The notes below the pieces were generated by a model, which was not told the DNA's origin, searched no databases, and was given only the letters and a program-made list of their open reading frames with translations. Shown here in pieces: positions 6,262 through 46,132 of a stretch of DNA of 64,000 bases. This stretch comes from Kappaphycus alvarezii (Eukaryota; Rhodophyta; Florideophyceae; Gigartinales; Solieriaceae): assembly GCA_002205965.3 (NCBI GenBank), contig NADL03000762.1:1-64000 (forward strand), written 5' to 3'. Numbering within the stretch: the stretch's first letter is position 1; every line of letters starts with the position of its first letter. Position numbers and translations under genes: made by a program.

Positions 6262-6896
6262 TTATTTCCCATTCTCTAAATCAGATCCAAACAACTCCTC
6301 TAAAATATCCATGCTGTCCAAGCAGTCCCCACAAATATCTGCGAATGGCCCACAGCTCTCTATTTCCCCTGGGAGATATCTAGACTACTAAAGATATCTC
6401 CATCCGGTTCCATCGTGGGCACAACTTGATCCATACTCTCCATTCCAGGCCCCACCAGTCCAACACTTTCCATGCCCCCTGTTCCTCCTCCTCTACCTCC
6501 TCCTCCTCCTCTTCCTTCTCCCATCCTCCTCCTCTTCCTCCTCTTCCTCCTCCTCATCCTCTTCCTCCTCCTCATCCTCTTCCTCCTCTTCCTCCTCCTC
6601 ATCTTCCTCATCCTCCTCCTCCTCCTCCTCCTGAGCCTCGTACACTAGCTCAGGGGCTAACCATTCCTCGAAGGACTCCCCGCTCTCCTCCTCGACCTTC
6701 TCAGCCTCTCCCGGACTTACCTCCCTCGCTTCTCCTTCTATGAAGAGGCGGCGAACGAACTCGATGATTTGCTTCTTTGTTTGCCGCCGGATGTAGTCGT
6801 CGGCATCGGTTGGCCCGTAGGCGGCGAGACGAAGGCCATTGATGGACGGGAAGGGCGGTTTTTGGAAATAGGGACAGAGGGGCGAAGGTTGTTCAT
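6262..6896 (-). CDS. Hypothetical acidic protein, frame broken by G/C-run length errors
   Basis: I do not recognise a family. On the minus strand a protein can be followed from MNNLRPSVPISKNRP (an alternative upstream ATG lies at 6983) through INGLRLAAYGPTDADDYIRR and QTKKQIIEFVRRLF. It continues into a Glu/Asp-rich run of about 50 residues encoded by GAG/GAA repeats (about 6650-6480) and a conserved-looking tail ending DILEELFGSDLENGK. The frame changes at G/C runs near 6853, 6520, 6475 and 6366, and in each case one extra base would keep the natural-looking sequence open. I therefore read it as one gene of about 210 codons with assembly errors. The acidic block and the hydrophobic/acidic C-terminus resemble a chromatin or transcription-factor tail, which is inference only. 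A CTATTTAAA TATA-like box lies about 110 bases upstream. Confidence 0.5.
6480..6645. repeat. CTC/CCT polypyrimidine microsatellite inside the acidic gene
   Basis: Nearly pure CCT/CTT/CAT triplet tract on the plus strand. On the minus strand it reads as GAG/GAA/GAT codons, giving the Glu/Asp run of the acidic protein. The other frames give Arg-rich and Pro-rich shadow ORFs. Confidence 0.85.
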
Positions 6897-6999
6897 TTTG
6901 ATAGACGTTGGGGAACGGGAGGCAATGTAGGGTGTTTTGGGTGTGTGGGGAAGAGGGGTGATGAGTAAAATGATCAGGGGCATTTGGAACTTAGAATAA

Positions 7000-7782
7000 A
7001 GGGGTTTAAATAGGCTCCCGGGGCAGGTTCTATAGATTAGGAATAGGTAAAATAAATCTGCAAGAGATTTTGCAGTAGTGCATTTGCGCCCTTCTTCTCA
7101 AAAAAAGGCGAATTTGGAGGAGGTAAGCTAAAAGGGAAAAGGGACTTGATTCGGGGTCGATTCAGAGGGTTAAATACAGTATAAAAATATCTAGATAAAA
7201 TGGAAGTAAATTTGGAAATGACGGTGGGAGAAGTTAGGGGCGGGATCGTTGTAGGTTGCTGGATTACACGAGGGGAGGACCATTTCCTGTATTAAATGAG
7301 GGGAGGACCATTTTTTGTATTACACACTGATCATCCGTTTCATATTTTGTGCTGATTTTTTCTTGTGTGCAAAGAGCTGGTTTGAGGTGCTTTGATTCAA
7401 AACCAGAAACTTTTCAACATGCATTAGGTTTTCAGAGATACCGCTGTTACTCTTGACATAGTCGTTGGTGTTGATATTATTACGCTGTAGTTTCGAGTAG
7501 TGCTAGAACTCATAGTCTAATATTAAATCCCTTTGTTTCTAATGGATCTACTACTTTAGTGCATTATCAGTCAGCACTGAAAAGATTGCGTGTGGTGGAG
7601 CACTTTGCCGACGTTCTTTACGAAGTTATAATTCTACAGACTTTTGGAACAACGCTGTCAGACTATACAGACTCCTCAATGAACCTAACCAAAAAGGTGG
7701 CAATGGACGTGTATAGGGTATCAACGAACAAAGATAATGACGTCTGTTGCTGTAGATATGCAATTACTGTACAGTATTAGGT
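7000..7782. other. Spacer with a short tandem duplication
   Basis: No gene recognised. A motif GAGGGGAGGACCATTT occurs twice in tandem at about 7271-7315, separated by TGTATTA-type sequence. The region lies between the acidic gene (diverging leftwards) and the end of the interrupted ORF. Confidence 0.5.
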
Positions 7783-7847
7783 TTACAAACTGCAGTCATT
7801 CAAAGTGCTGACGGTACAGAACAAATGCATGGGCGAGCAGGCACGTC

Positions 7848-8067
7848 TAAAGAGAATGATGGAGTTGGTGCCTCTCCGCACCCTCTCGTCGGCCCTCTGC
7901 CGTCTCACTTTATTGACCCTCCACGGTCTCACTCCGACCTGCGCGCCGGTGGCCCTCAGGGCTACTGTAATCACTGTAATTAATGGTCCCTATAGCCGGA
8001 CCCGGCTTTGCCCCTCTGTGGGCAGAATCTCAACAAAGCTAACGCCGCACACGAGTGGTCCCTAACA
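7848..8067 (-). repeat. Copia A 3' LTR
   Basis: 220 bp, matching 13344-13563 at all but two positions. On the element strand it starts TGTTAGGG and ends CTCTTTA, so the end is TA and not the canonical CA. The outer edge is set by the ACGTC target duplication. Confidence 0.93.
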
Positions 8068-8137
8068 CCCCTCCTCGGCGATAGCGAAAACTTCTCTGCA
8101 AGTGTGCATTAATCACAAAATAAAACCAAGCCATTGA

Positions 8138-8280
8138 ACTACTGGAGATCGAACCCCAGAGCTTTGGCAGATGCCATGCCAAATGGTACACAAAACAAAG
8201 CGAAGAAACAAAAGTCAAGATTCGAACCCAGGACCTGCGAAAAAAGTTTTAAATGATGCTCTCCGAGACCGATCATTAAA
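8138..8280 (-). repeat. tRNA-derived, SINE-like dimer with pol III B boxes
   Basis: On the minus strand, about 8276-8214 resembles a tRNA-Lys: AGAGCATCA (D-arm/anticodon side), an AAAACTTTT stretch, then AGGTCCTGGGTTCGAATC with a B box at 8229-8219. About 50 bases further, 8185-8138 reads GGCATCTGCCAAAGCTCTGG followed by GGTTCGATCTC (B box at 8157-8147) and a CCAG that can close a T-arm. Neither folds as a complete tRNA, so these are tRNA-derived relics. They lie in the 3' untranslated part of Copia A. Confidence 0.42.
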
Positions 8281-8285
8281 TTCCG

Positions 8286-8544
8286 TTAAAATATGATAAC
8301 TTTATGGCATCAGTAGAACGGGTGTCCGCTGCAGGATCCGACTATTCTGCTAGCTAAGTGCTAACCGGGGTTAAAATGTGATAACTTTATGGCATCAGTA
8401 GAACGGGTGTCCGCTGCAGGATCCGAAACCGGGCGTGGAACATCCGGTTAGTTCTTAGCCGTATAGTCAGTCCTGCAGTGTACACGATAGATACTCGATG
8501 AAGTAAAGTTTAATTCGACTATACTGCTAGCTAAGTGCTAACCG
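8286..8544. repeat. Interleaved tandem duplications near the Copia A 3' LTR
   Basis: A 55-bp unit (TTAAAATATGATAACTTTAT...) at 8286-8340 recurs at 8371-8425 with one mismatch. A 27-bp unit ending GCTAGCTAAGTGCTAACCG at 8341-8367 recurs at 8518-8544 with one mismatch. Order is A-B-A'-spacer-B', consistent with partial duplication of a longer A-B block. Confidence 0.85.
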
Positions 8545-11500
8545 TTTTTTACCGTTTTGCTAACGCTAAAAAATTCAGTAGCTCAGAGAATTGTCGGGCA
8601 TAAATAGCCCGACTTCACGGAGAGTGACCACAACTGATCCCAATAGTAGTTCGAATCCAACTGTAGAGCTATGACTGGAGGTTATTGAGGACCTCGCCTT
8701 GGTGAGGAGCAGGGTTTCACTTAATGCCCCGTTGTAAAACACACTCAGCCCAGACATGGGTAAGCACGATCAGCTGCTAAGGTTAGAAGTTGTGTTTTGC
8801 TAGTCCTTCCAATTTCTTTTGCCATATCTTCGAGCGAAGTGCAACATCAACATGAACTGCGGTCACTACTCTAACGTTATTCTGGCAAACGAATACTAAC
8901 AAAGTAAACGCGCGCGGTGCTTCTCCAATGTGCGCCTATCGACAGCCTTGGTCAATATGTCGGCAGCCTGATCTGCAGTTCCAATGCGAACCAGCTGCAC
9001 TGACCCCTCCTTGATGTGATCCCGAACATGATGATACTTGACCTCGATATGCTTGCTCTTGGCAGAAACTTGATCCCTTTCAGCGATAGAAATTGCGGCG
9101 GTGTTGTCTGTGAACACAAGTGATTGAGGAACCTTCATTTCTTTTGTGTACGGCATGTGACAAACCATTTCCCAGAAAAGTCTCGCATCCACATTATTTC
9201 CTTGATACAAGATGATAAAGCGACGTACTCTGCTTCAGCCGAAGAGAGGGCGACAATTGTTTGGCGTTGGCTCTTCCATGCAACAGGAGCATCGTTTACC
9301 AAGACAATATAGCCGGTTGTCGATTTGCGAGTGTCCTTGTCGCCAGCCCAATCCGAATCGACCAGCGCTTGCATGTTCAGAGACTCAGAAAATCGCTTTG
9401 GACTCTTGCTGCCTTTGGAACTTGATTCACATGTGTCTTGTGCCGGAGATGTAACGAAGCAATCGCTTCAGTAGGGAAGCGTGACGGACTGTGGGCTTGT
9501 GCACCTGAAGTGCTAAGGCATTCACCGCAAAGGTAATGTCAGGGCGTGTGCACACTGCAAGGTGCAAAAGCTCTCCAATGGTCGCGCGATAACTCGAGTG
9601 ATCTTTTTGTTGAGCGTCACGTCCTGTTCCGTTCCTGCGCTGACATCCGCGTGTTCGGGTAGTGGAGTCCAAGCCCCGTTGGCCTCATGCAATCCATGCC
9701 TTCCCAAGAGCTGTTCAACGTAACGTTGCTGACTAACCTTGATCCCATCTTGGCTATGGTGTACTTCCCATCCTAGAAACGACCTGAGTTCCAAACAGCT
9801 TGACATCGAACTCTTCGCTGATTCGTTTCTTGAAATGTTCCAGTAGTCCTCTTGAGTTGCTTGCGAAGGCCATGTCATCGACAATGATCCAGGATGATGA
9901 ATTCCTATCCACTACCTTGTAGAACACTCTGGCAGCAATACGAGACTGCTTAAAGTCCCAACTCAATCTCTTCACAACAAATAACGAACCCCAGGTAATG
10001 CCTGCCTGACGAAGTCCGTAAATGGATTTTAGCAACCTGCAAACGAACCCGGGGCGCTCCTGCTTTCCTGTGAATCAGTCGGTTGCTCCATGTACACAGT
10101 ATTTTCGATCTTACCGTACAGGTATGCACTACTTTCATCCCCTCCTTCAACGATGAGCCCTGTTGCGGCTGCGATTGCCAGGAGCATGCAAATGGCTTCT
10201 CGGGATGCGACAGGTTCATATAAGGAATCGGTTTCAAAATCGACTCCGGGGAGTTGCAAGTCACCGTGAATAACGCATCGGGCTCTATGGAAGAAGTTGA
10301 GCCCATTAAGATCCAACGGTTTGATACGAAATACCCATGTGAATGGGATCACATGCATTGAAGAGTCGCGGAGAACGTACTCCCATGTATCGCGTTTTCG
10401 GAGCGCGCGGTACTCCCTGTCAATAGCCTCGCACCAAAAATGATCTTTGGTTGCCTCTTGAAAGAATCGCAGCAATCGAGAATCTGGATGGGTCCTGCGC
10501 GAAACTGAGGCGTGAGGGAGAACGCGACAAAGGAATGCGGTATACGGAGAACGCTTGGGTGAGAAGATCTTCCAGGTAACAATGATCTAGATCCTGCTCA
10601 AGAGCAGTTTGCCTTGATATGCCATCAATGAGAGAGGACAATGCGGGTAGTTCATTGGTAGAGCAGAGGCGGAAGTCTTGTGCACGAGTGATGATGTAGC
10701 GCCTTCTGTCAGGAACATAGATTCTGAATATCGTTTGATCGCTTTCGAGCCCGACGAAATGGCCATGGGCAGCTCTCGCAGATAGCTTTTTGTTCGGCCT
10801 TGTTTCGATTGATACAGGAACGCGAAACCGGATTGTCCGAAAATGGGCAAATCCTTGAAGTTGACACGCGTTCGAGCGTCCCACAAGAGGACTGGGATGT
10901 TTCCATTGACTCTTTCTGACGGGAGGCGGTTTCGAAGCCAGTTGCTGTGGCTCATTGCTTCAGCCCACAACTCATTTCCATGCTTTGTCTCAAAGAGGAG
11001 GACACGTGCACGAACGCCCAGTTCCTTCATGAATCGTACCGCAACTCCATTGCTTTGCGGAGCATGCGGCGGGCTTGTCTCCAAACGAATTCCGTGCATT
11101 AAGGCAAAATTCTTAAAGTGCCCGACAAGTTTTCGCCCGCTCCGTCAAGACGTATGTTGATGATCTTGTGTATGGTGGTGTTCTCTGATTTTTCCTTGTA
11201 ATACTTCAATGCTGAAAACAGATCTGACTTTTGCTTGATAAAGTAGACATCAGTCTTTGCGGTACGGTCATCGACAAATCCAATGCAGTAATTGCTGTTA
11301 CCAAGAGAAGGTTGAGCCATTTTTCCACTGATATCGACATGAATGAGCTCAAGTGGGTATGATGTGATGCGCTGGCTTGGCAGAATCGGATGACGTTGTG
11401 CTTTCGCAATTGCGCAAGGAACACACAGTAGTTGTTCCAAAAGCCTCCTTGGGAAATGCGCGACATCATGAAATGTGTTGGACAACTGCATGTATCGTCC

Positions 11501-13343
11501 AGGGTGAGGGTGTCCTGTACGACTATGCCATTCCAAAGCCAGCTCCATCTCCGTTTTCGTGCGACTCGCACGATTGTAATTTGATCCAAAGCATTGACAG
11601 CAAGTAAGTTCATTTCGAGTCGCGGTGCTGATATCCAAATTCGGATGTACTGTGCAAGGTACATGATAACTTTGGCTCCTACCTTGGGTTAGCAATGAAA
11701 GGCGATAAAGCCCGTCATTATCAATCTGATCGCCTTGACGTCTTCGTTTGTGCCACGAATTGATATGACACAAGTATTTACACATTCTCTCCCTGGAGGA
11801 TCCATTATGAACAAGATGTTCAGACGCCGAGTTAACAAACCAACGGAAAGTATGTTCGTCTGAAAGTGCGGAGCATGATATGCCTCCATGAAGAATCCGC
11901 CAACCAAAGGGATGAAAACTTGTCCCTTTCCCACCAAGACAGATAGTTCAGAGGCGGCTTGGACATCCTGAGGTTTAATCTTCTCGTAGTGAACAAATGA
12001 GCTCTTGGAGTGGAAGAAGTGATGTGAGCCCCCAGAATCAATCAACGCATCACATGACTTTGCAATCCCACATTTTGCAATTGCCGTCTTGAACTTGATC
12101 TGAGCCATGAAACCGTAGGGGTGACTCGAATTGGTTCCGTTGTTTCTTTGAAATTCTCCTTGATCTTGATAATTGGCTGGTGCTTGGTCCGGTACGTGAA
12201 CTGGCAACGCTGATCGACCTGGAGCAGATGAATTTTCGGTCCAATGTTGCCTTGGGAATGATGGTTGTTGCTCCACGTTTGGTGTTGATGATAGTGTTGG
12301 TTATTCTCATATGGATAATTTCCATAGCCTTGAGCATAAGAAAGTTCACCACCCCACGGCCACCACGAAGGTTATTTCGCCCGAATCCTCGACCTCGGCC
12401 TCGACCACGGCCACGACCTCTGCCTTTTAACTTGTCAGCGCGAAAATAGCCTTCCATTGAACGATGAACAGGACGTCCACAAACCCAACATGGATCGGAA
12501 TCACTGCGGCCATTGTTCTTGTTCACTCTTCCGCCTTGGACTCCGTGGCTTTGGTTCTTATTGCTTGCTTCTGCCGTAGAGGCCTTCGGAACGTGGATTC
12601 CACCATCAGATCCTTTGGCATTTCGACGTGAGATCACTGTGGCAATCGTCGTGATGAGTTCCTCGTAGAACAACTTGCTTGAGATCATTGCGATCGGAGC
12701 AAAGTGCTCAGGCAATGTTCGAATGAGCTTGGACGCCTTCTCTTCGTCTGGCACAGCCTTGTCGAGTGATGCGAGTTTGCTTAGAATTTCGTGGAACTTG
12801 TTCAAGTGCTCTTCCCAGCCCGATCCTTCCTTGTACTGCAGGCTCTCCATTCTTGGAGAAGATTGATGACTTTCTGCTCATTTGATGATATGTACAGGCG
12901 AGCTAGTGCATCCCAAAGATCTTTAGCTCCCTTCTCGTCGTCATCGATGATGGTGCTTGTCTGAGCCATTGGTCCGTTTGCCAAAGTCAGAATGATAGCC
13001 GTCTTGGCACGGATGTTTGCCTTGTTCCAACGAGAGAGTTGGCTTGTCGTAGCATTTTCGGGGTGCGGCTTGAGTCCGAGAAGGTCCAGGTCTTCCCTCT
13101 GAATGTAGGCCTTGAGTCGACGGCGCCACTGGATGAAGTCCTTGGTGCAGATCAGTCTTGGGAGCTTTCTAATCGAATCGCCCTCACTAGCCATGATCGG
13201 TGTTGGTCAGCGGGGATGCAGAGCACAGAGAGTATGGGAGTAGTTCCGCCAAAGGGAGGAGCTGTCAGTAATGATGACAACGGTTTTTTTTTGGGGGGAA
13301 GGAAGAAAGGAGCTGAGTTGTTGAAAACTCCGCGATGCTACCA

Positions 13344-13563
13344 TAAAGAGAATGATGGAGTTGGTGCTTCTCCGCACCCTCTCGTCGGCCCTCTGCCGTC
13401 TCACTTTATTGACCCTCCACGGTCTCACTCCGACCTGCGCGCCGGTGGCCCTCAGGGCTACTGTAATCACTGTAATTAATGGTCCCTATAGCCGGACCCG
13501 GCTTTGCCCCTCTGTGGGCAGAATCTCAACAAAGCTAACGCCGCACAGGAGTGGTCCCTAACA
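13344..13563 (-). repeat. Copia A 5' LTR
   Basis: 220 bp partner of 7848-8067. It is followed inwards by a TGG-initiated primer binding site and outwards by the ACGTC target duplication. Confidence 0.93.
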
Positions 13564-14099
13564 ACGTCTGTAGTGCAGTCTATTCCATTCGCGAATGCCT
13601 TGCAGTACTGCGCGCAGTAACTTGTCAGCATTGAAAGTAAAATCAAAAAAGATTTGTTTTAATTTTGAAAAGCCATTAGAAAACGCGGGCCAATTAACTT
13701 TTTTTCTAAAACTTACGTTGTATTGCGACGCATGTGGTGCTGAATCTGCAAATGACGCTTGTGACGAATCACTAGCCTCGGGCGTCACCGTGATTGGAGG
13801 AAATAGTGGTGAAGAATCGAGAGAGCTTTTGAGATCAAGTGGATGGGGGAGAAGCCGTAGGGAGGACGAAGAGGACGTGGGTTGCGATGTTGGGGCCCAA
13901 TTGCTATAGGCAGTGAGGAAACGTCCGGTGCACCTTGAGACATGGAAAAGCAAGAGGTTGAGCAAGGGGAAGGGGATATAGGAGAGGCAGAGGTCGAAGG
14001 GTTATTGATTATGCTTGCAAGGGATGAAAACGAAGCTCCACTCAATGCCAAGGTGTAATTCTGGAAAGGGGATTCTTTATCTGCGTCTTAAAACATGTA

Positions 14100-17000
14100 G
14101 GACGGCTCCTTTGAATGTCTTCTAAGGCAAATATGAAGTTGGAGTTGGAGGAAAAAGCCTCTCGCAGACTCATTTTCGGGTTGATATTTTGTTGATGAAT
14201 GACCTCAAGAAGCGGTTATTGGAGTGGTTCAATGCATTTCTACGACTAAAGAAGACCATGGAGAGGTCGTAACAATTGAATTTGACTCTGTTAGCTTGTA
14301 TAGGTATGTGGCTCTCTTTCGTTTATCTCATACAATAGTATTTTCAATTGAGAAGACCATCTAAATATTATGAATGTCTGGAAGTACCCTAATGCCCTTA
14401 GATCGTATAAAAACAATAAAATCGAATATAGTAGCACATTTCTCAACTAAAAGAGGTACAAGCGGCAACGACAGATAGATTTCACAGCGAGATCAAACAC
14501 AGCTCCTAACCGAGTTTGAACCGTTTTCATTCAGGGAAACGAGATAGATACCATTCATTTCTTTGCATTTACAGAAAACGTTGGATGATAAAATATACGG
14601 AACTAGAGGGTTGAACAATCAGGTGAGAACCATAATCAACCGTAAGGCAGATAGGCAAGGGCACTCTGTGGAAGCTTTTACATGTAAGTTACTTAGAATA
14701 AATCTGAGGAAATTATTTAGGAGATGTAGAGAGCATCATGAGGAGAGTATCAGAAAACTTTTGGAGCAGCTTTTGGAAGTTAGGGGCAGGAATCAAAGAT
14801 ATGTTGAATTATAAATGTGGGTAGGGGCTATGGAAAGGAATCGTTCTTGATGTTTTTGATGGAGGTTTTGCCTTTTTCCGCTTTCTTGTCGGATCAGGTT
14901 CTGCCTTGTAACTCATTAGCGGGAAAAGTCTTTTTTGAACCAAAACAAAATTCTGTTGAGAAATAAGCTGATAAAGTGACTTATTCGGATGTTGCAGAAA
15001 CTTTCAGGCCTTCAAACGCGACTCTTGGGCATTTGAATGATCCGGTAAATTATGAACAGTCCCTATGGATGGTACGACTAGTAAATCAACGCATGTGAGT
15101 GATGCAGGTGCTAAAAACACTGCTATTGATTATCTTCTAGAGTGGAATTCTGATTCTGCGTGCCTTGACAGAAGGAAGGAGTTGTTATGATAGTTAGCAA
15201 GCATCGAAAGAAAAGGTTTAGCAAAGGAGTAAGGTTTAAGTACGCAGTCCCACCCGCTCTCAAAGGTATTTTGAACACTTAGATAGCAATTCACAAGGAA
15301 GGCTTCAATCTGGAAAACACATTTTCAGCGAATCAGATCATGGAAAAGGGATTGAAAAAGCTTCATTGAGTGGTAGAAGAGAAGATAGGTAATGCGATGT
15401 TCAAAATTTAGGGTAAAGATTCGCAGAATCGCTCAATTTCCCACAATTCCGAATAATTGGAACATGTCCTCGAGCCTTTATGAATTCATTTTCGACCACC
15501 AGCGTGGCGCTTGGCATAAGGGAAACAGATGAGGGTGAAACGATGAAGACAGAATGGTTTGGTATTTTGAAAAGGAGATAGTTTAGCTCAAAAGTGTCCA
15601 CTGAAGCAATGAAAGTTAGCACAGATAATTAACTGGTTGTTCTAAATGCTCCTTGGAACACAATTCTAACGAAGAATATCTTAGATATTATAATTATAGC
15701 GATGAAAACATATAAGTACGTTGTGTGCTCCCTAGATGAGGTATCAGTTTTGGAAATTCCTTTTTTACGGGTTTGAAAGGCGAGTCAACTTTAGAATGCT
15801 TTGAAGTTGAGGGATTAATTCTCGCGGTCGTTGATAACATGAAAATTGTTTTTAAGCTCATCTAGTTCAACTCTGCAGCTTTAAACTCCCTATTTGGCAT
15901 TCTGTAATTTCAAAGATAAAAATTCATTAAATGCGTACCTATTTGTCACATAGGACAGTTTATTCACCAGAAAACTGTTATTCGGTTGTAACAGAGACCA
16001 AGACACTGTATACTTTGCTCATAAGGGTACTTACAGCTGTTCGGGAAGTTTGTTACAACTCAATTATGTCCTTGGTAGAACCATTTATTGAGTAGGCGTA
16101 TATGGATTAAATTTCCTTTCCACCTTTCGTATAAGATGAGAGCAGAGAACAGCTGAAGACTATATATAAGTTCTGGTATATCATAGACTCGCACATTTAC
16201 GAAATTGCCTGCTTCCTTCCCTTCAAACTCTTCAAACATGCCGCCCATACTTTTTACTCGAAGACCAAAGAGAGCGCTGATGGCGCGACGCAGCAAAGAG
16301 CAATTTTGCAAAGCTCAACTTCTCACTTTGAATGGAAGAAAAGTTTGGCCTCTCAGATAATCAAGACTCTATCCATTAATGGTTTTGGGAGATTGGGAAT
16401 GATTGAACGCTAAGGCTCGATCAAGACCGATCAACGCTTTGGACCTATTGAGGCTTACCTCGCAGCTCTCAACAAATTTCAGGCTCTTGTAGACTTGTTT
16501 GACGTAGCGCAGGAGTTGCACAGATTTTCCTCTAATCTGCAGCTGGAAAACTGGTCAATATGAAAGCAAAAGTTTAACCGCGGCTATAGAGACAACAGAT
16601 CTTGAAGCGAAGCGCTTAAATGGACCTACTCATATTTAGAAGCGAAACATGCTACAATTTTTAATTCAACCAAGGCTGTTGAACTTCGTCTTTCAGTTCT
16701 TGGTCATCAGATTGGACAGTAGCCTTTAAAAAATTACGCGTTTTGTTGGCATCGTAGTCAGGGTTGCAGAGGCCGTAGGCCAACCTGCAAATTCAAAGAT
16801 ATTTTTGGTACATTTCTGCTTTAAAGTTCCACCGGGATACCGCAGAAGGTGTTAACATATATAGCATAGCAGTTTGTTTCTAGAGACAAGGAAACTCCCG
16901 GCGAGGGCTCCACCTTCGTCAAGTGGTTATGGTTCTGGCAACTCTGTGGCCATTACTGCTACAATAAATATGGGTGTAAACGAGTCAACCGCTAGGGTCT

Positions 17001-31017: not shown

Positions 31018-31022
31018 ACTGT

Positions 31023-31941
31023 TGTGGATTACAGCGGTCCGAGGGATGAATGACAAGTGTAAGGGTAGCTAGTGTCTATACGACCATTCTCTGTCCTCAT
31101 ATGAGGCACACTTTGTCCTCATATGAGGACAGTTTCCGTTACATTTTGGAAAGGTAAATGTTTTGGAAGGCCGAAATTTTTACCGGAAAAAAGGTTTTTC
31201 ATGTTAACTTACAGTACAGTAATATTCACTGTACGTGCGCCCTCGTTTCTGAAACCCCCACTATAATACGAACTATTTTTCCTTCCAAAATGTAGTTATT
31301 TTCACAACTTCTTGCGAAGAGCGGGAGCTGGTGAGGGAAAATTGCTCTAGGCTTAACCGAGGTCAATAATCTTGAAAAGTTTATCTTGATCGGCCATCTA
31401 CACTCATGAACTAATGCGGAGGGACAAGAAATGCGCTGAGGTAAAAAAGAATTGTATTGAAAAAAAGGGCTAAAAGTTGTCCTCATATGTCCTCATATGA
31501 GGACAACGGTCCAATAGACACCAGGGGTCGGAGATCAATCAGCGTGCGCTTAGTGGTTGAGGGATCAGTGCAGGCAAGTCGATACGGCACAAGTCGCCGG
31601 CTACCTCCCCTCTCCTCAGGGTAGGCGCGCATCACCATCCCTTTCATAGACTACCGATCTGCTCGGTTGTGCTCTCCACAGCGTCCTCAATGCACTTTGC
31701 ATTGACAGTGGGCGTCCCTCTATCAGTGATGCAAGAGTGAGTACGTCATCTTGCATTCACTCCTCTCTCTCCCATATGTGCTCTCTTAGCACTACGGACT
31801 CAGCACACAATGCATTCATCTCTCGTCTACCAGGCGCTCTCCCCTATGCGCTGGGACCACTAATGCACCTTCCTCAGTTTGTATCTTTTTTGACACGTGA
31901 GATATCTGTCCAGCTTGGACAGGTAAAGGTAGCAATCGACA
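31023..31941 (-). repeat. Copia B 3' LTR, split by a 450-bp insertion
   Basis: 31023-31071 and 31522-31941 together match 36696-37161. The sequence 31072-31521 is absent from the other LTR. The outer edge is fixed by the ACTGT target duplication. Confidence 0.9.
31072..31521. mobile_element. MITE-like insertion with palindromic ends (450 bp)
   Basis: Its boundaries are defined by comparison with the intact LTR at 36696-37161. The ends are inverted: GTGTCTAT...GACC...TGTCCTCATATGAGG on the left and the reverse complement, with a few mismatches, on the right. The target is TA on the left (31070-31071) and CA on the right (31522-31523), consistent with a TA duplication with one change. The 18-bp perfect palindrome TGTCCTCATATGAGGACA is at 31114-31131, with near copies at 31092 and 31478-31505. 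There is no transposase, so it is a non-autonomous DNA element, possibly of the TA-target (Tc1/mariner-like) class. Confidence 0.82.
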
Positions 31942-34900
31942 CTCCCCCCAGTCGTAGCTACACCAGCTGGAGCTAACGACTCTATGAGTTCCATATTTGT
32001 TTTTACCACTGATCTTTGTCAACGACCTTGTTCCGATTCAACTTGAACTCCAGAATTCCAGATACACACATATGATTCAGCCTGCACCACATGTTAAAGT
32101 TACGCTTGGTCAGAGCATCAGCTAGATTCCCTGTTCCGGGAATCCAGCGTTTAGCGTTCGCTTCCTTACTCTCGAAACTATTGCGGATGCGTTGCACAGT
32201 TTTGTCTCAGCCTGTACCCTTTTCACTCGTGCAACGTTGTGATTGTATCCCATAACGCTTTGCTGTCTACCATCATTTCGTGCTTAACCGGGTGTTCGGG
32301 AACAAAGTGTTAATCGCAGTCTTAAAATAAAATCCTCTGTCGTCTTTGTCTGACGTAGCCGCAGCTGGTATCTCTGCTCCATAGGCCGAATGATTTACCC
32401 TGGCCTGCTTGTGTGAGCACCAGTCTGTACCGTGGAATACGTCCTTTTTCGATATCCCATTTCTGCACAAAATTCCAACGACGATACCAGTTTGCCCATA
32501 ATCTGTGTCCTTCGGATGGGCTGCGTCCGATAGGGTACAAAGGACTACGTCTGAAGCATTCCGAACTTTAAGGTATAGAATAGCTGGGAGGAGCCTCGTA
32601 TTGGTCCCGTACCATGCTATTTGCTTCTGTAAGATGCTGGACAGTCAACTTACCCAGTCTCTGCTGCAACAATGAGACAACAAGGGACGCTTGCGGTAGG
32701 ACACCGTTCCCAGAAACAGAAAAGTGCCTGCCAAACTCCAGTATTGGGCTATCTCTTCTGCTGTTGCGAGTGATTTGTCCATTTTCCTCCTTTTCCTGCT
32801 CAGGCGAATGCTCTTTATCCTCTTCCAGTACGCATTCATCGTCAGCCTGATACTTCTGTCGTCGAAATGTTTTATCTCACACCCCCGAATGCGTACAACG
32901 GACCGTCAACAATCTTCCCAACGATAAACCTCTTCTTAAGGTCCGTCATGAACTCGTCTATAGCCTCCATTTTACCTGCAACCAAGAAATCGTCGCTCAA
33001 TTTGGCCACTAACAAGGATATAGACCCGTTCGGGCTGCGATTTCACAAACAGTTGGCTGATACCGAACACTCTCCTCATTCCTGCAGTCTTCAGCATCCA
33101 CTCTTCCACGGTAAGCATCCACTGTCTACCAGCCTCAACAATTCCATACGGTAGCTTGGTCAGTTTCCATAGAGTCCCCTTGCGATAGCCCATATTGTTC
33201 GTCCATTCTCTAGGCGATCGGACGAAGATATCTCGCTTAATCGGGCCGCTTTGAAGGTATACCCTTTAATCTCTGCAGTCTTGATCGAGAAGCTCAAAAA
33301 TGTAACTAGACTCAGGAGCAGTCGTATCACTGACAGCTGTGCGTTTGATGAGTCTTTCCTTATCGAGTCCTTATCGTCATCCTCATTGCCATGAGGCACA
33401 ATGCGGGCTTTCAGCCTGCGCTCCCCTTGCTCATCCGTTTTCAATTTGTATACGACATGCGACGTGACTGCGTTAGCGTCTTTGGGTACGTAAATGTCTT
33501 CCACTTTGGTATAGGCGTCAGACCAGTTACTCGAATGCTCGGCAGTAAACGCTTCATCCAAGATCCAGGATGGGGCAAACTCCAACTTAGCCCTCGACTC
33601 TTGCTGGGAGCCTACTTGCTCAAAAAATTTGTCCAAGATACGTTGCTTATTGGATTGTAAGTTCAGATACTCGGATGTTGGTCCTATTGTTTCGCTTTCC
33701 GGCTTATCTATGTCCATAGCCGCGGTGTCTTGACTACTTTCGACCTCGATTGGAATCTGTTTATCTGTCTTACTTTCCACGAGATCTGCGTACTCTTCTG
33801 TCGGACCAATGGCCTTAGCCACGCCTGTATCGATCATATTCTTAGACAATTCTCGTGGGATAGCAGCCGGGAGGAGAGCGTTGATCGACGGACGTGAGTC
33901 ATCATTATTACTGTTATCATATTCCCCTCATCCGTCGATTGATTAAGCTCCTCTTCTAACGAGCAACTCAACAATTCTCTTGCCAATGGTGAGCTTGGTG
34001 CGAGTCTACAATCTTCGTATGCTGGTTTCATGGGCATGCCTGCGGCAGGTGTGTTATTCTTCAACCGACGTGCCTCCATGTAGTGTGGGAATGTCCTTTC
34101 CACAATAGCAGGGACCCACTCGTTTCGTTTGTTACCTTTCGAGGATTTATACCATACCCAGATCTGATCACCAGGCTTATTGGTGAATTGATCAGAGCCT
34201 GTGCTCTAGTTGGATCGCATGGCGCGTTGCAGTGCGCGTGTTGCTGACTGTTCTACATGAGCTTTTAGGAGTTCCAGCGGTACGATGGAGGAGGGGATTC
34301 CGAGAACAGAAGGCTGATAGCCTCGTACTAGTTGAAAAGATCTCATTAGCTTCGATACAGAGAAGAAATTGGACATGAAGAGTGCCCTTGATACGATGAC
34401 CTGAGCGGAGCATGATGATACTTCCAGGTCCAATTTTCTGATGATGCTCTTCAATGTCTGTATTTTGCGTTCGACTATCCCAGTTTCGTTGTGTCTGCCT
34501 GCGGGCCTGGCTTTGAAGACTATGTTGTGGGAGCTCATCAATGTCTTCAGTTGCCCTTTTTTGTACTCGTCGTCAGCGGATAGCGAGACTGGGGCTCCAT
34601 GTCGGAGAATCCAGTGTGATTCTAGTGAAGCAGAAATTGTATCTTTACTTCTGTTGACTGTAATGAGGCCTTCTATAAAGCCTGTTCCTGTATCTCTGAT
34701 GATGAAGATGGTTCTCTTCTGTCCCGAACGATTTCGAACGCAAATTCAATCTGTACTTCCATATTAAACGCCTCATTTACATGAGAGAGCGATATCTTCT
34801 TGCTAACGGAAAGGTATCCTGTCTTCGCGCAGATCGTACACGCTTGGCTAACCTCGTCTATGGCTTTTTCTATCCTTTCGGTTAGGATGCCAGCCTGACT

Positions 34901-36695
34901 GCATATGGACTTGATTTGTTCTGGGGCCGCATGTGTTAGACGGTGTATCCTCTTGGCGAACACCTTCGGTTTGCGACTTGACCTCTGTGCCAAGTGTTTG
35001 GATACTAACGAGGTGATGCACTTTTCCAACTTGTACACAAATTGAACTCGTAAGCGTGGGCTAAACGGATCTTGCTCGTCCGTATCGACGTATAGGTTAA
35101 AGACTCTTAGTTCCGAGTCTGTTGGTCGCTTCAGCGTAAGTGACCAGTTATCGGTCATGCAATCCTGGATAGAATGTTTACCGACATCCAATCCTATTAT
35201 TACGGAGGAATCATTGGGTAACAAGTGGAAGACAAAGCTGCATGGGTTTTCGTTACATCAAGGATCGTGAGCTCCCAAGTTCCCACAATAGGTACCGGTT
35301 CTAAGCCTTTTTCTCCCTAGCCATGCATGCGGTGGTCGTGCGGCGGGTATGTGACGACGTTGACTTCTAGAAGATGACAGAGTTTGGCAGCGCTGTGTAT
35401 CCCGGCGGTGGACACCGGGGATCCCGGGTCGTAAATGGGATTAGGATTTCTCACCCTTCTTGCACGGAAACCGTGCTAGTTGCGAAAGAATTGTCGGGGT
35501 TTTCGCGGTCCTCAGGTCGTCAGGGTCAGATTCGTTTTGGTCATTACCGAAATGGACCGTCTTTTTAGGATGACGTTCTTTCTTCCATACGTCCTTTCTT
35601 TTTAACCCTTTTCGCCCCTTCGGATAACTTCTATTCAAAGGGCATTCTGGGTTACGAGCCGAGTGCCCGATTTTCTTACATGCAGCACACCTCGAATTCT
35701 GCTTGTAGTCGGGCACTTCATGATGTGACCTTTGGGCGTTACCCACATGGATGCTCATGAGCGCGTTGCTCGCTTAGGGAAGCTCCTCATCCGGAACCCT
35801 TTTCGCTGCGACACTTCTGCTCTAATATCTTTGAGCGCCTTATGTGTCATCCAAGCTAAAGTGAAGTTTAGCGGATTTGTTGCAAGCCGTAGTATGGATA
35901 CGAGACATGAGGGCAGACAGCTCTCCCTTGGCCTTTTAAGTTCTTCATTGACTTTGCTAGACGTCCCAATATGTACATCAGCATCGCGGTTGCCTACGGT
36001 TTCGTGTAGAGTGGATGTGCAAATATCAACTATCTTGTATACGCTTGCCAGTTCTTGGTCGCTGACCGTGCCGTCGTATGACGACTTCCTCTCGGGATCC
36101 GCTCCCTTGTTAACCAGGATCGAGAGGATTTTGTTATAATTTGTGTCCGGTAACCCCGCATTGTCGAGTAATACTAATGCCAGTTGTTGCTTTTCTTGAT
36201 CAGTGGCTGGTCTATGAAAGCAATTCAAGTGTGTCTGGGCGATTCCTCTAAATCTGTCGGTGAATTCCGAGTAGCTCTCACCTTGTCTGCGTTTGCAATT
36301 AAAGGCTGCCCTTCCGGTGTTGATAAACCTTCTGGCAACATCAGTGGACGACTCTTTAGCTGCTAAGTCGAGCATTCTTTCAACGGTAGCCTGGTGATCC
36401 TTGAAGGAAAGGGTCTCCTCGTCATCGTCGGATCCCAGTGACAGCTTGCCAATCTTCATCTTAGCCTCGATTACTTTCTGATACGTCTCTTCCATGCCCG
36501 CGTAAAGTGCGTGCCCGTACCGTTGGATATTCCCTTTGCCTTAATGTCCCCTCCCTTTGCGAAGACCTTAATTCTCTGCATCCACATTTGCACATCACTT
36601 CTGTACTTGAACTTGTCCGTTTGCGTCCTTAGTTGTGGAGCTTCGATTAGCGATTGATTACCCGCCGAGATCTCTTGAACCCCTGGGCCCATAAC

Positions 36696-37161
36696 TGTGG
36701 ATTACAGCGGTCCGAGGGATGAATGACAAGTGTAAGGGTAGCTAGGGGTCGGAGATCAATCAGCGTGCGCTTAGTGGTTGAGGGATCAGTGCAGGCAAGC
36801 CGATACGGCACAAGTCGCCGGCTACCTCCCCTCTCCTCAGGGTAGGCGCGCATCACTATCTCTTTCATACACTACCGATCTGCTCGGTTGTGTTCTCCAC
36901 AACGTCCTCAATGCACTTTGCATTAACAGTTGGCGTCCCTCTATCAGTGATGCAAGAGTGGGTACGTCATCTTGCACTCACTCCTCTCTCTCCCGTATGT
37001 GCTCTCTTAGCACTGCGGACTCAGCACACAATGCATTCATCTCTCGTCTACCAGGCGCTCTCCCCTATGCGCTGGGACCACTAATGCACCTTCCTCAGTG
37101 TGTGTCTTCTTGACACGTGAGATATCTGTCCAGCTTGGACAGGTAAAGGTAGCAATCGACA
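36696..37161 (-). repeat. Copia B 5' LTR
   Basis: 466 bp with TG and CA ends, matching the split LTR at 31023-31941. It is followed outward by the ACTGT target duplication. On the inner side lies a sequence complementary to the anticodon arm of initiator Met tRNA. Confidence 0.92.
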
Positions 37162-38700: not shown

Positions 38701-38707
38701 AATAAAT

Positions 38708-39001: not shown

Positions 39002-39102
39002 TCTACCTGTGCCTGCTACCGCCCAGTATCACCCTCTTTGACATTCTTCTCCAGTGACTCTTCGTTAATCCTTGCCATCTTTCTGACACTTCTTCACTCC
39101 CC

Positions 39103-40771
39103 ATGGCCTCCTACAGCTCCACAGGTACTCTAGACTACGCCTTGAACAAGCGTCATTTACCACGTTCACAAGTCGAAGCTATTCCTGGTGTTGACGGTGC
39201 CGAGGAGTCGGATGACAATTCTTCCTCCATCAATCCGTCGTCTCTACGGGCCAACTTTATGCCTCCCTCTGCGGATTTGCCGGATCTTGATCCAATAGCA
39301 ATTGAAAGGTACGGTTCGCTTCGCGAAAGCTCTCCGTTCTTCTCCCCCGTCTTCAAACATTTGCCCACAGTTCGCCCTGAGAAACTAAAGGTTGCAACTG
39401 AGGACGCCCAGATCTTGAGACGCAAGTTAATGCGCGACTCAAATGTCCTTATTGTGCAAGGCGGGTACCATGGGAAGATGTTTATCTATGAAACCCTCAA
39501 GAAGTTGGGCGTCAACGTCTTCATCATGGATGGCCCAGACTCTGTCTGGCGCAAAGCTGCAGAGGACGGCTTGATTTCCGACTTTATCGAGATCGACTTT
39601 ACAAACAATGATACCATTTTTGAAAGAGCTATGGATGCTATTATGGATTCATGCATGGAAATGAAGTTTGACGCTGTCACCACCTACTATGAGGATGCCG
39701 TTGCTTTGGCAGCTAGAATTGCCACCGCCATGGGGCTGGCTGTCAATTCTGTCGAAGCATGTGACAGGGCACGCAATAAACGAAAGACAAGGGAGGTAAT
39801 GGCCGAGGCAGGGCTGCCCGTACCAAAATTTCATAGAGTGTTGACGTCTGAAGATATTACCGAAGCCTGTGCTTACGTTGGTTTCCCTGCAATTCTAAAA
39901 CCAGTTTACGGTGCTTCTTCGTTGGGAGTGACAAAGGTGGAGAGCACCAAAAATGCAATCGAAGTTTATGACGAGCTGGTTAAAACTCTCAACGTTAAGG
40001 AGGATACCATCTGGGCGCAGGGTACTGAAATGGTCCTCGAGGAATACTACGACGGCGATGAGTTTGATATTGACCTTCTTCTTTCTGAAGGTGTGGTTGT
40101 TTATGCCCGTGTGTCAGATAACTGGGCCTGTTTCGAGCCGTGGTTCCAGGAGACGGGTACAAACTGCCCATCCCTTTACCCACCAGAGAAGCAAACTGAG
40201 CTGATTAAACTCGCGATTGACACCACGCTCGCTCTCGGATTCAGGTACGGCGCATTTCATGTTGAATGCAAGTACACATCGAGGGTCCGCGAATGATCGA
40301 GGTGAATGCTAGGATGGGAGGAGTATCCGTTCGTGACGCCAATCGATTTGCATGGGGTGTTGACTTGGTTGAGGAGCACTGCATGTGCGCGTTGAAGATC
40401 CCCATTCGGCCTTTGGTCCCTGCCACACCTTTGAAGTTTATGGCTGAGGCTGCTATCAATGCGCCGTATTCTGGTGTGATGAATTCGAACACCTGGCTTG
40501 ATTTTGCTCTCAAGGATCCTAGGTCTACAAAGTGAATTACTACAAATTGGAGGGTGATAAGGTACACGGGCCCGAGGATGGTATGCCAGACTGGATTGGG
40601 GAAGTGATTGTGGTGGGAAACGAGAGTGCTAAGCATTCTATTCAGTTGGTGCGTGCTATAATCGAGCGAGCTACAGTTCCCATTATTCCTACCATTGCAG
40701 GGAGTGAAGCTCCATTCTTCCTTCCCGTGGAATCACACCCTTTCACTGTCACGTGCGACGGGAATGAGTAA
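39103..40771 (+). CDS. Carnosine-synthase-like ATP-grasp ligase
   Basis: A single-exon gene of about 555 codons starting at ATG 39103. It encodes an ATP-grasp carboxylate-amine ligase most like animal carnosine synthase (CARNS1), which joins beta-alanine or a related acid to histidine using ATP. Visible features are: a variable N-terminus of about 110 residues, a pre-ATP domain (VLIVQGGYHGKMFIYETLKK, about residues 114-133), the ATP-binding strand with KPVYGASSLGV (about 267-277), EEYYDGDEFDIDLL, and the metal-binding IEVNARMGG near residue 400. The frame changes twice, at GGG 40283-40285 and GG 40522-40523. At each, one extra G keeps the conserved sequence continuous (TSR/GPRMIEVN and KDPR/VYKVNYYKLEG), so I treat these as assembly errors. 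Animal CARNS1 is longer at the N-terminus. The substrate here is unproven. The gene converges on IPK1, with about 290 bases between the stops. Confidence 0.85.
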
Positions 40772-41062: not shown

Positions 41063-42479
41063 TTACCGTAAGACGAAAGTTTCTTCTTTACAGCTTAGGA
41101 AGACCTCCGGCTGCAGTAATCCGTGATAATCGCCGAAAGTCTGTAGGTGCCCACTTTTGCTCAATCTTGTCGATACTTTTGAGCCGACGTCTATGATATG
41201 AACAACGTACACCCACCTTTCTCCGTCTACATTCACTGTCCCGCAATCCAGCTCGCTGCTCACCAACTCGTCGCAAGATACAGCAGACCTTGCTTCTGGA
41301 CACATGGAGATGATTATAGAGCAATCCGCTGCTATTGCTGCTTGCATGAAGTCAGCCAACAGCCTCGCTGCAAATGGAAGCTCCATGTCATTCGCTTCTT
41401 CTATTGCCTTAGTGTATCTGTCACGGAATGAACCCTTCTTGCCTCTTCAGTAGACCCATACGATACCTTCGCCTTGGCCGCCTGATAGCCTTCTTCATCC
41501 CAATCATCAACATCATTTTGCCCGCTTCTAAACATGTAGCTCTCAATCATGTTGTAAGCGCAGGATTTTCCAACCTCTTTGACCAGGCGTTTTAGTAAGA
41601 AAGCTGCCCCGAACATATCGATGTGGTCCACGCCTTGAGCCTCCCTCACGCAAGTAAGGCAACTCTTTTTACCTCTTGGCGAACTCATGAGGATACTTGA
41701 AGCAGCATCGAGAAACTTAGCACACAATCCCCCATTACAAGTCAGCGCGGGAGCGGAATTTTGGCAGAAAGGACTCCCGTTCCGAAATAATTTCAGGCTC
41801 CTGGATCCCTCGTCATGAAGATTTATGAGCTGTTGTAAGATATTTCTCCCGGACACAAGTTCAAGTGGGTCATATCGGCGACTGCGCTCTGGTAGGCTCC
41901 CCAATTCTTTGCTTCCTGGTGGCAGCAGATAATTCTTTAGAAAGTACGTTGGCATATAGTACTTCTGCAACTTTTCTGCCACTTCAGGATCCAGCAATGC
42001 AGAGCGTGAGAGCACTCCCAACTTGGGTTTGACCTCAACGACCACAGTATCGACTCCAAAGCAATATGCAAGGTCTGGAAGAAGCTCTGCGAAACCAGGG
42101 GCAGTTGAGATGGACGACTGAAGTTTGCGGCTGCTGGACGATGGGGGTCGGCGGCCTCCGAGAGCTCCTCGAGGTAAGAGCGGGATAGCTGAAGAGGGAT
42201 AGGATAAACGAGATATCGTTCGAACTTTTCGCGAATGAGAATTGGTGGATCATAGGGGTGAGGAGGGTGGTACTTCGCGTTTGTCCCATTGGCATCTTTG
42301 CGAGCGAGATAGACACACAGGGCGGTGGGGAAATTGGAAGTAGACCCATTGTTTTGAACACGAGGCTTACCTTGAGTAGAGTAAAACAATGCTTTCTGTG
42401 AGCCCTCAGTACGATAGGTCCAGTAGTTCGAGGGCGGCAGACGAGGGCCTGTGAGATCCTCGGTGATAAACCTGGTCAT
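41063..42479 (-). CDS. IPK1: Inositol-pentakisphosphate 2-kinase
   Basis: A single-exon gene of about 470 codons, close to plant IPK1 in length. It phosphorylates Ins(1,3,4,5,6)P5 at the 2-position to make phytate (InsP6). Family marks are: N-terminal YWTYRTEGSQKALFY (nucleotide-binding loop region), the signature EVKPKLGVL near 42020, RRYDPLELVSG, CNGGLCAKF, and a C-terminal stretch with IAADCSIIISM and WVYVVHIIDVGSK, matching the conserved ID-x-D/S-x-K end of the kinase. The protein spans three frames that switch at the CCCC and GGG runs (coding strand) at 42101-42098 and 41435-41433. One extra base at each gives a continuous protein. ATG 42479 is the first start in the N-terminal frame. 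It converges with the ATP-grasp gene. Confidence 0.88.
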
Positions 42480-42857
42480 GCCTGATTTGGGGCAAATTCC
42501 AAGGTACAGCTATGTGTTTCCGGTGCTGTTTGTATAGTCGGGGCAGAGACGGAACCAATGTCGTTATTGGTGCGCTGTGAGAGGCTGCTGAGGCACTAAT
42601 CGAGCTCACTGTGAGCAAAGAGGAAAACTTGTAGTGGTCCGCGCCGTGGATAAGGGTAACCGGGCAAAGGGTGCAGGATTGATTCAGATCACGTGTTTTG
42701 GAGTGCAGCAGAGTTGTTCGCAAGTTTCACAGGCAGACGTGCCTTTGTGGCAATGATGATGCGATTCAGTCACGATAGCCGTCTCGAGACTCTACACCAA
42801 CGACACCTCACGAGAAATATCACGACAAGGTCAATCTTGCGGCCTCGTTATCTCTCA

Positions 42858-43250: not shown

Positions 43251-43663
43251 AAACTGAGAGTGAATCTAGAGGAGTGCATTTGATAACCCTGCATCCCGCC
43301 GCCACAACTAGGTCGCCGGAGGATGCCCGTTGATTAGTTGCAGTTCCAAAACACAACTATCACTCAAATTAAATTACGAAGGCATGGCCATACACCAGAT
43401 ATGTCCATCGAGTAGGACTCCACTTATCCGGCACCATGTCTGGTCGAGTTTCAGTCTGTAACCCCCACCTTCAAAACCCAAAGACACTCACCCGAAACAG
43501 TCAATACTGGCCTCCGGAACGAGCCTGGGCGTCACGTACATCTCCTTCGTCACTGTTCAGTCTCAGAGGTCTGCACAACCACGAGTTACCTGGCCTTGCA
43601 TATATACATCCAGCTACTTAATCATCTGTCATGTATCTGACGAATAACAGTGAAGATCTTTTC

Positions 43664-43951
43664 TTATGATGACAGGAGATGATAACGCACACAAAACTCA
43701 ACCCCAGTAGGAAAGAATTCGACCTCCTCAATCGCCAGACATAGAGGTGAACTCCAGGCCTCGCTGAACAGCAAAGCTTTCCAGTGGTCCACGTATGCTA
43801 TGCGCCCAATAAAATCTAGTCTGTGAATCAAGGGCCGGGCGATGATACGATCGCAAAAATTGATAATCTGTAGGTTTGCATAGTGGACATCTCTTATTGT
43901 TGAAGGTATTCTTGCCCACAAATGGCCGTCATTCCTTCTCCCTAGCCCCAA
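43664..43951 (-). CDS. Unrecognised ORF directly downstream of GT49, same frame
   Basis: 95 codons from MGLGRRNDGHLW to YHLLSS, 18 bases beyond the GT49 stop codon (TAA 43972-43970) and in the same frame, so a stop read as sense would extend GT49 by about 100 residues. The sequence looks protein-like but matches no domain I know. It may be a separate small gene or open 3' untranslated sequence. Confidence 0.25.
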   Translation of the reverse strand: MGLGRRNDGHLWARIPSTIRDVHYANLQIINFCDRIIARPLIHRLDFIGRIAYVDHWKALLFSEAWSSPLCLAIEEVEFFPTGVEFCVRYHLLSS

Positions 43952-43969
43952 TATTGTAAATCGTATCGG

Positions 43970-46132
43970 TTAAATTTCGGGGTGGAATAATGTCATTCTC
44001 CACCCTCTATAACTACTGCGCTCAATTGCAAAAGCCTGAAACCTTCGCCAAGTCTGCAGATAGTGCTCAACATCAATACCTTGCACCCAGTCGTTTTCGA
44101 CGTGGTTGAGATGTGTCAAAAATGCTTCTGGAAGCACAAATATACGCCATCCTGCCACCTCTGCCCCGAACGCCCAGGAAATCTTATTAAACCCATACCC
44201 GTTGAATCGCTCATCATATGCAGGGTACGTATCTCTCCGCATAATACCATAAGGTTCATAATCAGTCAGAAACCTCGTCTCTACTACATTGCGCTCGCTG
44301 TACCATCTCTTAATTTTGTTTGAACGCTGTGAGTTCAAGCAGTACGGAACTCCAGCTCGCCGACTTAGTAAATTTCTCAACTCCCCTTTATCCTTAGCCG
44401 ACCGATGCTGGACGTCTCCAATGAAAACGGGGGGTTAACATGCGCCTCTCTCCTTCCGGAAGCAACTTACGCAGCCACACACCACTAGCCTCTCGCAGGC
44501 AAGCAAATCCCTTCCAAGCCGGGGTCATGTCCACATCGGCCATCATAACAAAGTCTGTCCTTGCAGCCCGCACGGCAACGTTCCGCAAAGCGTTGATCGC
44601 AAGTGCAGCTTCTCCCTCGCGCCACCTAACAAACGTCACTGACACATGTTTCCTCAACCACATCTTCCCCTCCCAGATTTTCCGAAACATATCTAATTCC
44701 ACCTCATTCCTGACCGCCACCGCAGCCACAATTGGACCACCGCCATACAGTCGTGACATAGCTTCTAATCTCAATACACGATCCGCTGTTAGCGGAACGG
44801 CAATGGTCAACTCCCGCTCTCTGGCGACAAGTCAGCACGCAAGTGCATCCAGAGTGCACTTAGTTTTCGTCCGTCCTCTTCTCTTTCTATGTTTTTGTTC
44901 CAATTCCCACCACTCACATCACCAAAACATGAAGAAAGGTCGTCCTCTCTAGCTACCTCTCTCACTTCCAACTCATCAATCAGTAATGCGCTATCTTCAA
45001 TATCCCGCCAGTGAAACCAGACATGAAGCCAGCGCCTCGCTTCCACTACAACACAAACTCTTTTCCACTCCTTTCCACCCCTAGGCAAAGGAATAACAAC
45101 ACCATCATCCCTTTCACCCCGACAATCATCTCCCCTTCCATGGATGATTCTTCTTCCATTCCCTCGCTTGGGCTACCCGCGATGCGATACCAGGCCCTTA
45201 CAACAAACTTGTTAAGTTGGTGACCTACCCATAGACCCTGATGGACACCATGATGAAGCTGCATTTTGGCCTTCCACAATTGATGACCGCCAAGAGCTAA
45301 CATACAATTTCCATACAACGGTGCATAATGAACGTTTTGAAGGGTATAAAGGCCACAAACTCGACGGGCATAGCCGTTGTAAAATGGGGTCCAATGACGA
45401 GGCGGGAATCATGGGGATGTGCGTAACGAGTGGCCAAAGGTATCGGTACTGCGACTTCCTCAAATGACGGGTTTTGTATGCGGTTTGCAGAGTTTGGAAG
45501 GGTGGAGAGGATGACGCGACATAGTGGGGTATGACGGTCAGAGGCACGGATGTGAAGCGTGTAATCCAGGTGTGGGGAGAGGTTGGTGATAAGTAGACTG
45601 GTGTGGAGGGAAGGGAGGGTGAGATTGGTTGGAGGGTGGGGTGGAGGGCAGTATGTCGGGGATATATCAATGGAGTACGGCGGGGGAAGCTGAGGGTGGT
45701 TATGTGCAAACGGAGTAGAAAAGAGGTGGAAGTAGGGGTGACAAGGGTGAGACAGGGTGCGTGAAGGAGAGTTGGACGGGGTCGGAGATTAGGAGGCGGG
45801 GACATGTTTTCGGAGGAGGAGAGGATGGTAGGAAGGGTCGAAAACGGCATGATATGGTGAAGTAGAGGTGGAGGGGGCAGGAGTCGCACTGCGGAGTGGG
45901 CGCAACAAAAGGCCGAGGAGAAGGCCGAGGAAGGCGGAGACGAAGAGGCTGATGGAGGGTGACAATTGGCTAGACGGGGGAAGGGGAGTGAGAGCGATTG
46001 GCATTGAAAGCCAGCAAATGTCGGGGGAGGTGGAGAGGTGGTCGTGGAATTTGACGCAACTCGCGAACGGTATCGCGAAAGGAAACTAGCTTGGTCAATG
46101 TGATCAGGCATGAGATCGGGATGGGATGACAT
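43970..46132 (-). CDS. GT49 family glycosyltransferase (LARGE/B4GAT1 type), Golgi type II membrane protein
   Basis: The catalytic C-terminal half is clear: ELTIAVPLTADRVLRLEAM, ALAINALRNVAVRAARTDFV, the metal-binding DVD in MMADVDMTPAW (near 44530), then YDERFNGYGFNKISWAFGAEVA and IFVLPEAFLTHLNHVEN. These are hallmarks of GT49, whose animal members add glucuronate or xylose-glucuronate to glycans. The N-terminal part has a short tail, a hydrophobic signal anchor (SISLFVSAFLGLLLGLLL, about 45953-45903) and a Ser/Pro-rich stem, as expected for a Golgi enzyme. The start is ATG 46132 or 46004. The frame changes at G/C runs 44429-44434, 44813-44815 and 45387-45390, with more in the stem, in the pattern of length errors. 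In an alga it would probably act on wall or secreted glycans (inference). Confidence 0.85.

Follow-up and report, generated by a model that had tools for sequence, protein, structure and literature searches.

Do the broken reading frames in a draft genome sequence of the red alga Kappaphycus alvarezii record genes in decay, or bases lost on the way to the assembly? The window analysed here (64,000 nucleotides of contig NADL03000762.1, assembly GCA_002205965.3) is a transposon-rich piece of eukaryotic chromosome that carries three genes of recognizable family: an ATP-grasp ligase, an inositol-pentakisphosphate 2-kinase (IPK1), and a GT49/LARGE-like glycosyltransferase. A first-pass annotation had proposed that five host-like genes change frame at twelve sites, only at runs of G or C and with the run one base short, and had ascribed this to systematic under-calling of G/C homopolymers. 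Its observation is partly confirmed: conserved-looking genes do contain frame breaks, most of which lack a single base. Its interpretation is partly supported, in that assembly error is the likeliest explanation, and the rule confining breaks to G/C runs is an over-reading. We estimate a probability of about two in three that the breaks reflect single-base indel errors, predominantly losses, left in the consensus of a draft assembly, a judgment made from the sequence itself.

Breaks were placed, with no prior choice of a run, by a three-frame codon model trained on confident segments; for the ligase, IPK1, and GT49 the tested gene was left out of training. In a wide set of five regions (6,417 nucleotides, comprising the leave-one-out paths for these three genes, an acidic putative open reading frame (ORF) read from the ATG at 6896, and a putative coding stretch at 13.6-14.2 kb), the paths contain 15 breaks and one to two nonsense codons. 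Thirteen breaks are one base short, as had been claimed, and two are one base long, a shift that leaves the same frame as the loss of two bases (13 versus 2; sign test p = 0.007). A narrow set (5,512 nucleotides; the ligase, IPK1, GT49 from 45788 onward, and the acidic ORF, with training on segments from the first three) has ten breaks on the best path, eight short and two long (sign test p = 0.11), and no nonsense codon, a zero that is partly by construction because the GT49 start at 45788 directly follows an in-frame stop. Break density is 1.8 per kb in the narrow set and 2.3 per kb in the wide set. Posterior mass summed over the five regions (14.8 short versus 6.2 long) is less one-sided than the path count, and this stems mainly from the N-terminal part of GT49. 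The model also returns weaker clusters at 41095-41088, 14001-13970, 45736-45694, 44466-44393, and 46081-46004, and weaker one-long clusters at 40204-40217, 40258-40306, 46108-45977, and 45878-45773.

That the protein continues in another frame is borne out by homology on both sides at three breaks; at the others it rests on stop codons, open frames, and the coding model. In the ligase, whose structural match 3vot is an L-amino acid ligase, breaks fall near 40266-40306 and 40521-40534. Four plasmid-borne bacterial homologs (L001-L004) align on both sides of the first, and between the aligned motifs the window has 14 nucleotides where three of the four homologs have five residues and the other has six. 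Fourteen nucleotides against 15 or 18 makes this break one base short modulo 3. The four come from ten listed matches (24-32% identical) of a plasmid search in which 255 records matched, and they are informative at this one break. Beyond the second break there is no homology in the Pfam scan or in the four homolog alignments, and the second ligase piece gave no useful match against PDB; searches of genome contigs, viral contigs, and phages found no ligase relatives that would fix the run lengths. The same spacings bear on short introns misread as frameshifts. These are eukaryotic genes, and introns do change frame without mutation, but the homologs leave no room for one at the first ligase break, and 40520-40534, an interval bounded by stops, is too narrow to accommodate one. 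This argument, which rests on interval lengths and applies to the short intervals around 40283 and 40522, leaves introns very improbable.

IPK1 breaks near 42128-42107 and 41443-41404. The second break is flanked by PF06090 in two frames: one matching piece is 41404-42249 (E = 2.2e-10), and the other, in a different frame, is 41066-41446 (E = 2.6e-4, below cut-off). A possible third break, 41195-41172, is called by the posterior and by the leave-one-out path and disappears once training covers every gene; Pfam is ambiguous there. Ahead of the first break, the IPK1 piece matches no family in Pfam or PDB, the first, last, and C-terminal pieces found nothing useful in PDB, and an IPK1 piece searched against viral contigs found no relative.

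GT49 breaks near 45354-45304, 45121-45048, 44829-44808, and 44435-44396. Two frames flanking 44429 match PF13896 (E = 3.3e-7 and 5.4e-13), and pieces of the gene match the LARGE1 structure 7zvj (E = 4.4e-8 and 8.2e-10). The six-base run at 44429, the longest run involved, is one of the two exceptions in direction: comparison with LARGE1 fits it both as long by one and as short by two, and it is therefore no simple case of under-calling. Over the N-terminal part (46132-45788) signals are ambiguous; the model calls a break near 46024-46011 and a nonsense codon at 45789. When every gene is included in training, an additional interval appears at 45799-45778, and the runs in it are of C only. No relative of the GT49 piece was found in viral contigs. 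Ahead of the GT49 domain, the minus strand at 45300-45788 has a weak, sub-cut-off match to fibronectin type III (PF00041, E = 0.02-0.035), so an additional N-terminal domain is possible in this GT49-like protein.

The other two of the five host-like genes are without a family match above cut-off. The acidic ORF, for which no Pfam family scored above cut-off, breaks near 6529-6508, within 6459-6362, and near 6848 if its start is the ATG at 6896. The stretch at 13.6-14.2 kb, with no Pfam match, breaks near 14087-14050 and 13919-13809. Frame breaks exist in the regions first named, and eight of the twelve sites lie inside a modeled 95% break interval, but 6475 and 45387 lie in none. For 42098 the only modeled interval is a weaker one, of the one-long kind (mass 0.42), and 6853 went uncalled in a run that began in the downstream frame. 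Nor was the list of sites complete: further breaks occur at 45121-45048 and 14087-14050 and, less surely, at 41195-41172.

Do the breaks sit at G/C runs? Such runs are present at all twelve sites and reach at least three bases at 11 of them (3 to 6 bases); at 40522 there is only GG. We defined well-resolved intervals as those with mass of at least 0.7 and length of at most 51 nucleotides, outside the acidic repeat, in the leave-one-out run. Eight intervals qualify, including 14087-14050 and the uncertain 41195-41172. A G/C run of at least three bases occurs in five of the eight and an A/T run of that length in six; in the three intervals that lack such a G/C run (40521-40534, 42128-42107, and 41195-41172) the only runs of at least three are of A. 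A G/C run near a break means little, because random coding stretches often hold one: the chance of a run of at least three is 43% in 22 nucleotides and 68% in 46. An impression of breaks at G/C runs only can arise from picking a run within a wide interval, since most coding stretches of 40-50 nucleotides here hold one by chance (63-68%).

Location models, compared by marginal likelihood over four genes against uniform one-base losses, point the same way. Relative to uniform placement, the log Bayes factor (lnBF) of G/C-run-only models is -2.1 (runs of at least two) and -5.1 (at least three), that of any-base run models is -1.1 and -1.9, respectively, and that of A/T runs of at least three is -13.3, worse than G/C only. 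In simulations (12 replicates each, with eight deletions per replicate and no opposite shift, unlike the real data), deletions at G/C runs gave +1.4 ± 0.8 (runs of at least two) and -5.0 ± 4.9 (at least three), and uniform deletions gave -3.0 ± 2.1 and -8.5 ± 2.7. Hence the measure for runs of at least two fits uniform placement and that for runs of at least three does not discriminate. It is improbable that systematic G/C under-calling alone made the breaks. In its favor are the runs of at least three at 11 of the twelve sites and in five of the eight resolved intervals, the clearly poorer A/T model, and the compatible measure for runs of at least three; yet the observed -2.1 lies over four standard deviations below the simulated mean, three resolved intervals lack the run that the proposal needs, and the run at 44429 is either long by one or short by two. 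What survives of the first interpretation is that assembly indel errors in genes that are probably intact explain the breaks best; systematic G/C-homopolymer under-calling as the mechanism is without support.

A biological alternative is frameshifting triggered by stop codons. In Euplotes ciliates, ribosomal frameshifting at internal stop codons is reported to be frequent (PMC10235951), and the genes of the window might likewise be read normally across frames. A model that locates shifts at stops does beat uniform placement, by a total lnBF of 13.6 that comes from the ligase and GT49. In simulations, however, uniform deletions reach 8.6 ± 5.3 (range -0.2 to 17.4) and true stop-located shifts 38 ± 4 (28-42), with ten replicates each; every simulated set held eight shifts, all in one direction, whereas the real data include opposite shifts. 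Stop-triggered shifting is disfavored because the observed value fits the simulated deletions; moreover, the scores of IPK1 and the acidic ORF are negative, and the first IPK1 break sits well before the upstream stop. We regard it as the least probable of the explanations weighed here. Extremely improbable, too, is the broader idea that the assembly is correct and that working proteins arise through frequent frame-correcting decoding, or single-base insertion into nuclear mRNA, of genes mostly one base too few. Nothing in the window calls for insertional RNA editing of nuclear transcripts.

The first-pass annotation had described breaks in host-like genes, but the transposons of the window break in a similar way. 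Their coding DNA (13,362 nucleotides, including candidate coding stretches) has 20-23 short breaks, 9-10 long breaks, and 3-8 nonsense codons, varying with the stop penalty, and the resulting 2.2 to 2.5 breaks per kb is similar to the density of the host regions. This is as predicted by an error process blind to function. Transposons may also decay naturally, and the ORF of a hAT transposase had no breaks (0.08 expected shifts of either kind in the frame model). That hAT element may have been recently active, as its ORF stands uninterrupted among broken-looking transposons.

Natural decay would be expected to leave nonsense codons as well as frameshifts. Three repeat pairs in the window together differ by 78 substitutions and four indels, and a random substitution in the genes examined creates a stop in 3.2% of cases. 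Under decay, 15 frameshifts accompanied by one to two nonsense codons have a probability of 0.007-0.05 when calibrated on the three pairs and 0.05-0.17 on the two young pairs. The shortage of nonsense codons favors error over decay only moderately.

On the reading that we prefer, a draft consensus, probably built from long reads, would lose single bases and so break frames; the errors would strike coding DNA of any origin at ~2 per kb, beyond G/C runs, and the ligase, IPK1, and GT49 genes would probably be intact in the organism. The reads or the basecaller as cause, the kind of platform, and the working state of the genes are all things that we infer. Several observations weigh against this reading. 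Homopolymer location models are no improvement over uniform placement, and long G/C runs show no clear deficit against a Markov expectation in the run-length spectrum, which in the absence of a reference cannot separate error from no error. The breaks are clustered: the 1.48-kb hAT ORF has none, and the initial 1.17 kb of the ligase is free of calls. The repeat pairs show two one-base differences against the 4.8 expected if errors fell at random with the frequency seen in the narrow set (P = 0.15), and therefore any errors may be context-bound. The nonsense codon at 45789 is called under all three penalties tried and that at 14088 under two of the three, and the share of nonsense is alike in host genes and transposons (Fisher p = 0.48-1.0 with the wide set and 0.17-1.0 with the narrow).

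These last points, and the transposon-rich surroundings, would suit true pseudogenes, that is, genes that have recently decayed, mainly by small deletions; their nonsense share resembles that of decaying transposons, and a bias toward deletion is common in natural decay. We nevertheless consider pseudogenes unlikely. Nonsense codons fall below what the substitution-to-indel ratio of the window predicts, at the probabilities given above for each calibration; recognizable IPK1 and GT49 family sequence persists after successive breaks; and three unrelated neighboring genes would have to have been lost almost simultaneously. If residual assembly error is indeed responsible, gene callers applied to this record would mistakenly fragment or drop at least three conserved genes, and counts of pseudogenes or lost functions in the genome would be inflated.

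The features of the window are collected in Table 1. Among its repeats, the inverted siblings that we take to be copies of a long interspersed nuclear element (LINE) differ by one base in length beside a C run near 57641, with the gap opposite a G; this is one of the two one-base differences counted above for the repeat pairs, and it may be natural.

Table 1. Genes, transposon-derived regions, and repeats of the window, with the evidence for each
Feature	Position	Strand	Evidence
ATP-grasp ligase gene (L-amino-acid-ligase-like)	39103..40768	+	PF13535 E = 6.1e-15; PF18130 E = 6e-8; PDB 3vot E = 1.4e-23
IPK1 gene	41066..42482	-	PF06090 in two frames
GT49/LARGE-like glycosyltransferase gene	43973..46132	-	PF13896; LARGE1 7zvj
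Acidic low-complexity putative ORF over (TCC)n tandem array	6263..6906	-	Coding model; tandem repeat 6483-6632
Putative protein-coding stretch	13600..14170	-	Coding model
hAT transposase ORF, 493 aa, intact (no-break control)	48580..50061	+	PF05699 E = 1.3e-9
Retrotransposon remnant, presumably gypsy-like (transposon control)	3000..5700	-	Weak RVT_1 PF00078 E = 0.0014, below cut-off
Retrotransposon remnant, presumably copia-like (transposon control)	9000..12850	-	PF13976 gag_pre-integrs E = 4.9e-5, below cut-off
Retrotransposon remnant, presumably copia-like (transposon control)	32000..36495	-	PF07727 RVT_2 E = 1.8e-5, below cut-off
Remnant, presumably LINE-like from the look of its sequence, with inverted sibling copy at 55507-56132	57458..59771	+	Repeat comparison; scanned piece without Pfam match
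Direct repeat pair, probable long terminal repeats of a young element	7848..8067 (+) and 13344-13563		99.1% identical; 2 substitutions, 0 indels in 220 bp
Direct repeat pair, probable long terminal repeats	31023..31941 (+) and 36696-37161		Two blocks, 50 and 419 bp; 15 substitutions, 1 indel
Inverted sibling copies, presumably LINE-like	55507-56132 and 57493-58111		89% identical

Elsewhere in the window, ~8 kb at 22001-30000 has a GC content of 30-36%, against ~40-48% around it, and no ORF longer than 84 residues is listed there. Mutation resembling repeat-induced point mutation is not suggested for this tract by CpG observed/expected (0.78-1.06) or by TA/AT ratios in the 4-kb windows that cover it. 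Palindromic sequence of the TGTACAGTAC type occurs around 46.2-46.4 kb (46150-46450), and 46358-46452 matches 55165-55260 at 95% identity. The window has no tRNA and no Rfam match at the gathering threshold.

How does this locus compare with known systems? The proteins of the window resemble those of Euplotes in continuing in another frame and differ in that the stop-located model does not describe them (PMC10235951). The phenomenon is probably an ordinary, already documented sequencing artifact. The Homopolish work documents systematic nanopore homopolymer indels that survive read-based polishing and shift reading frames; its test sets have references, and the window was judged without one (PMC8011154). 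In the bacterial long-read drafts of the Kastor study, erroneous deletions at homopolymers two to eight bases long produce frameshifted "pseudogenes" at a low per-base error rate (PMC12007338). Those gene-fragmenting deletions are like the ones proposed here; A/T runs were affected about twice as often as G/C runs, and the intervals of the window do not resolve base type (PMC12007338). In Drechmeria coniospora, homopolymer indel errors in nanopore-only assemblies break conserved genes, initial gene prediction in the new genomes recovered under one-sixth of 305 conserved single-exon genes at full length, and short-read polishing removes such errors (PMC7500977). Over-long runs were the commoner kind there after polishing, whereas most breaks in the window are short; in both, single-base changes of length, here probably errors, break conserved genes and leave open frames that jointly rebuild the protein (PMC7500977).

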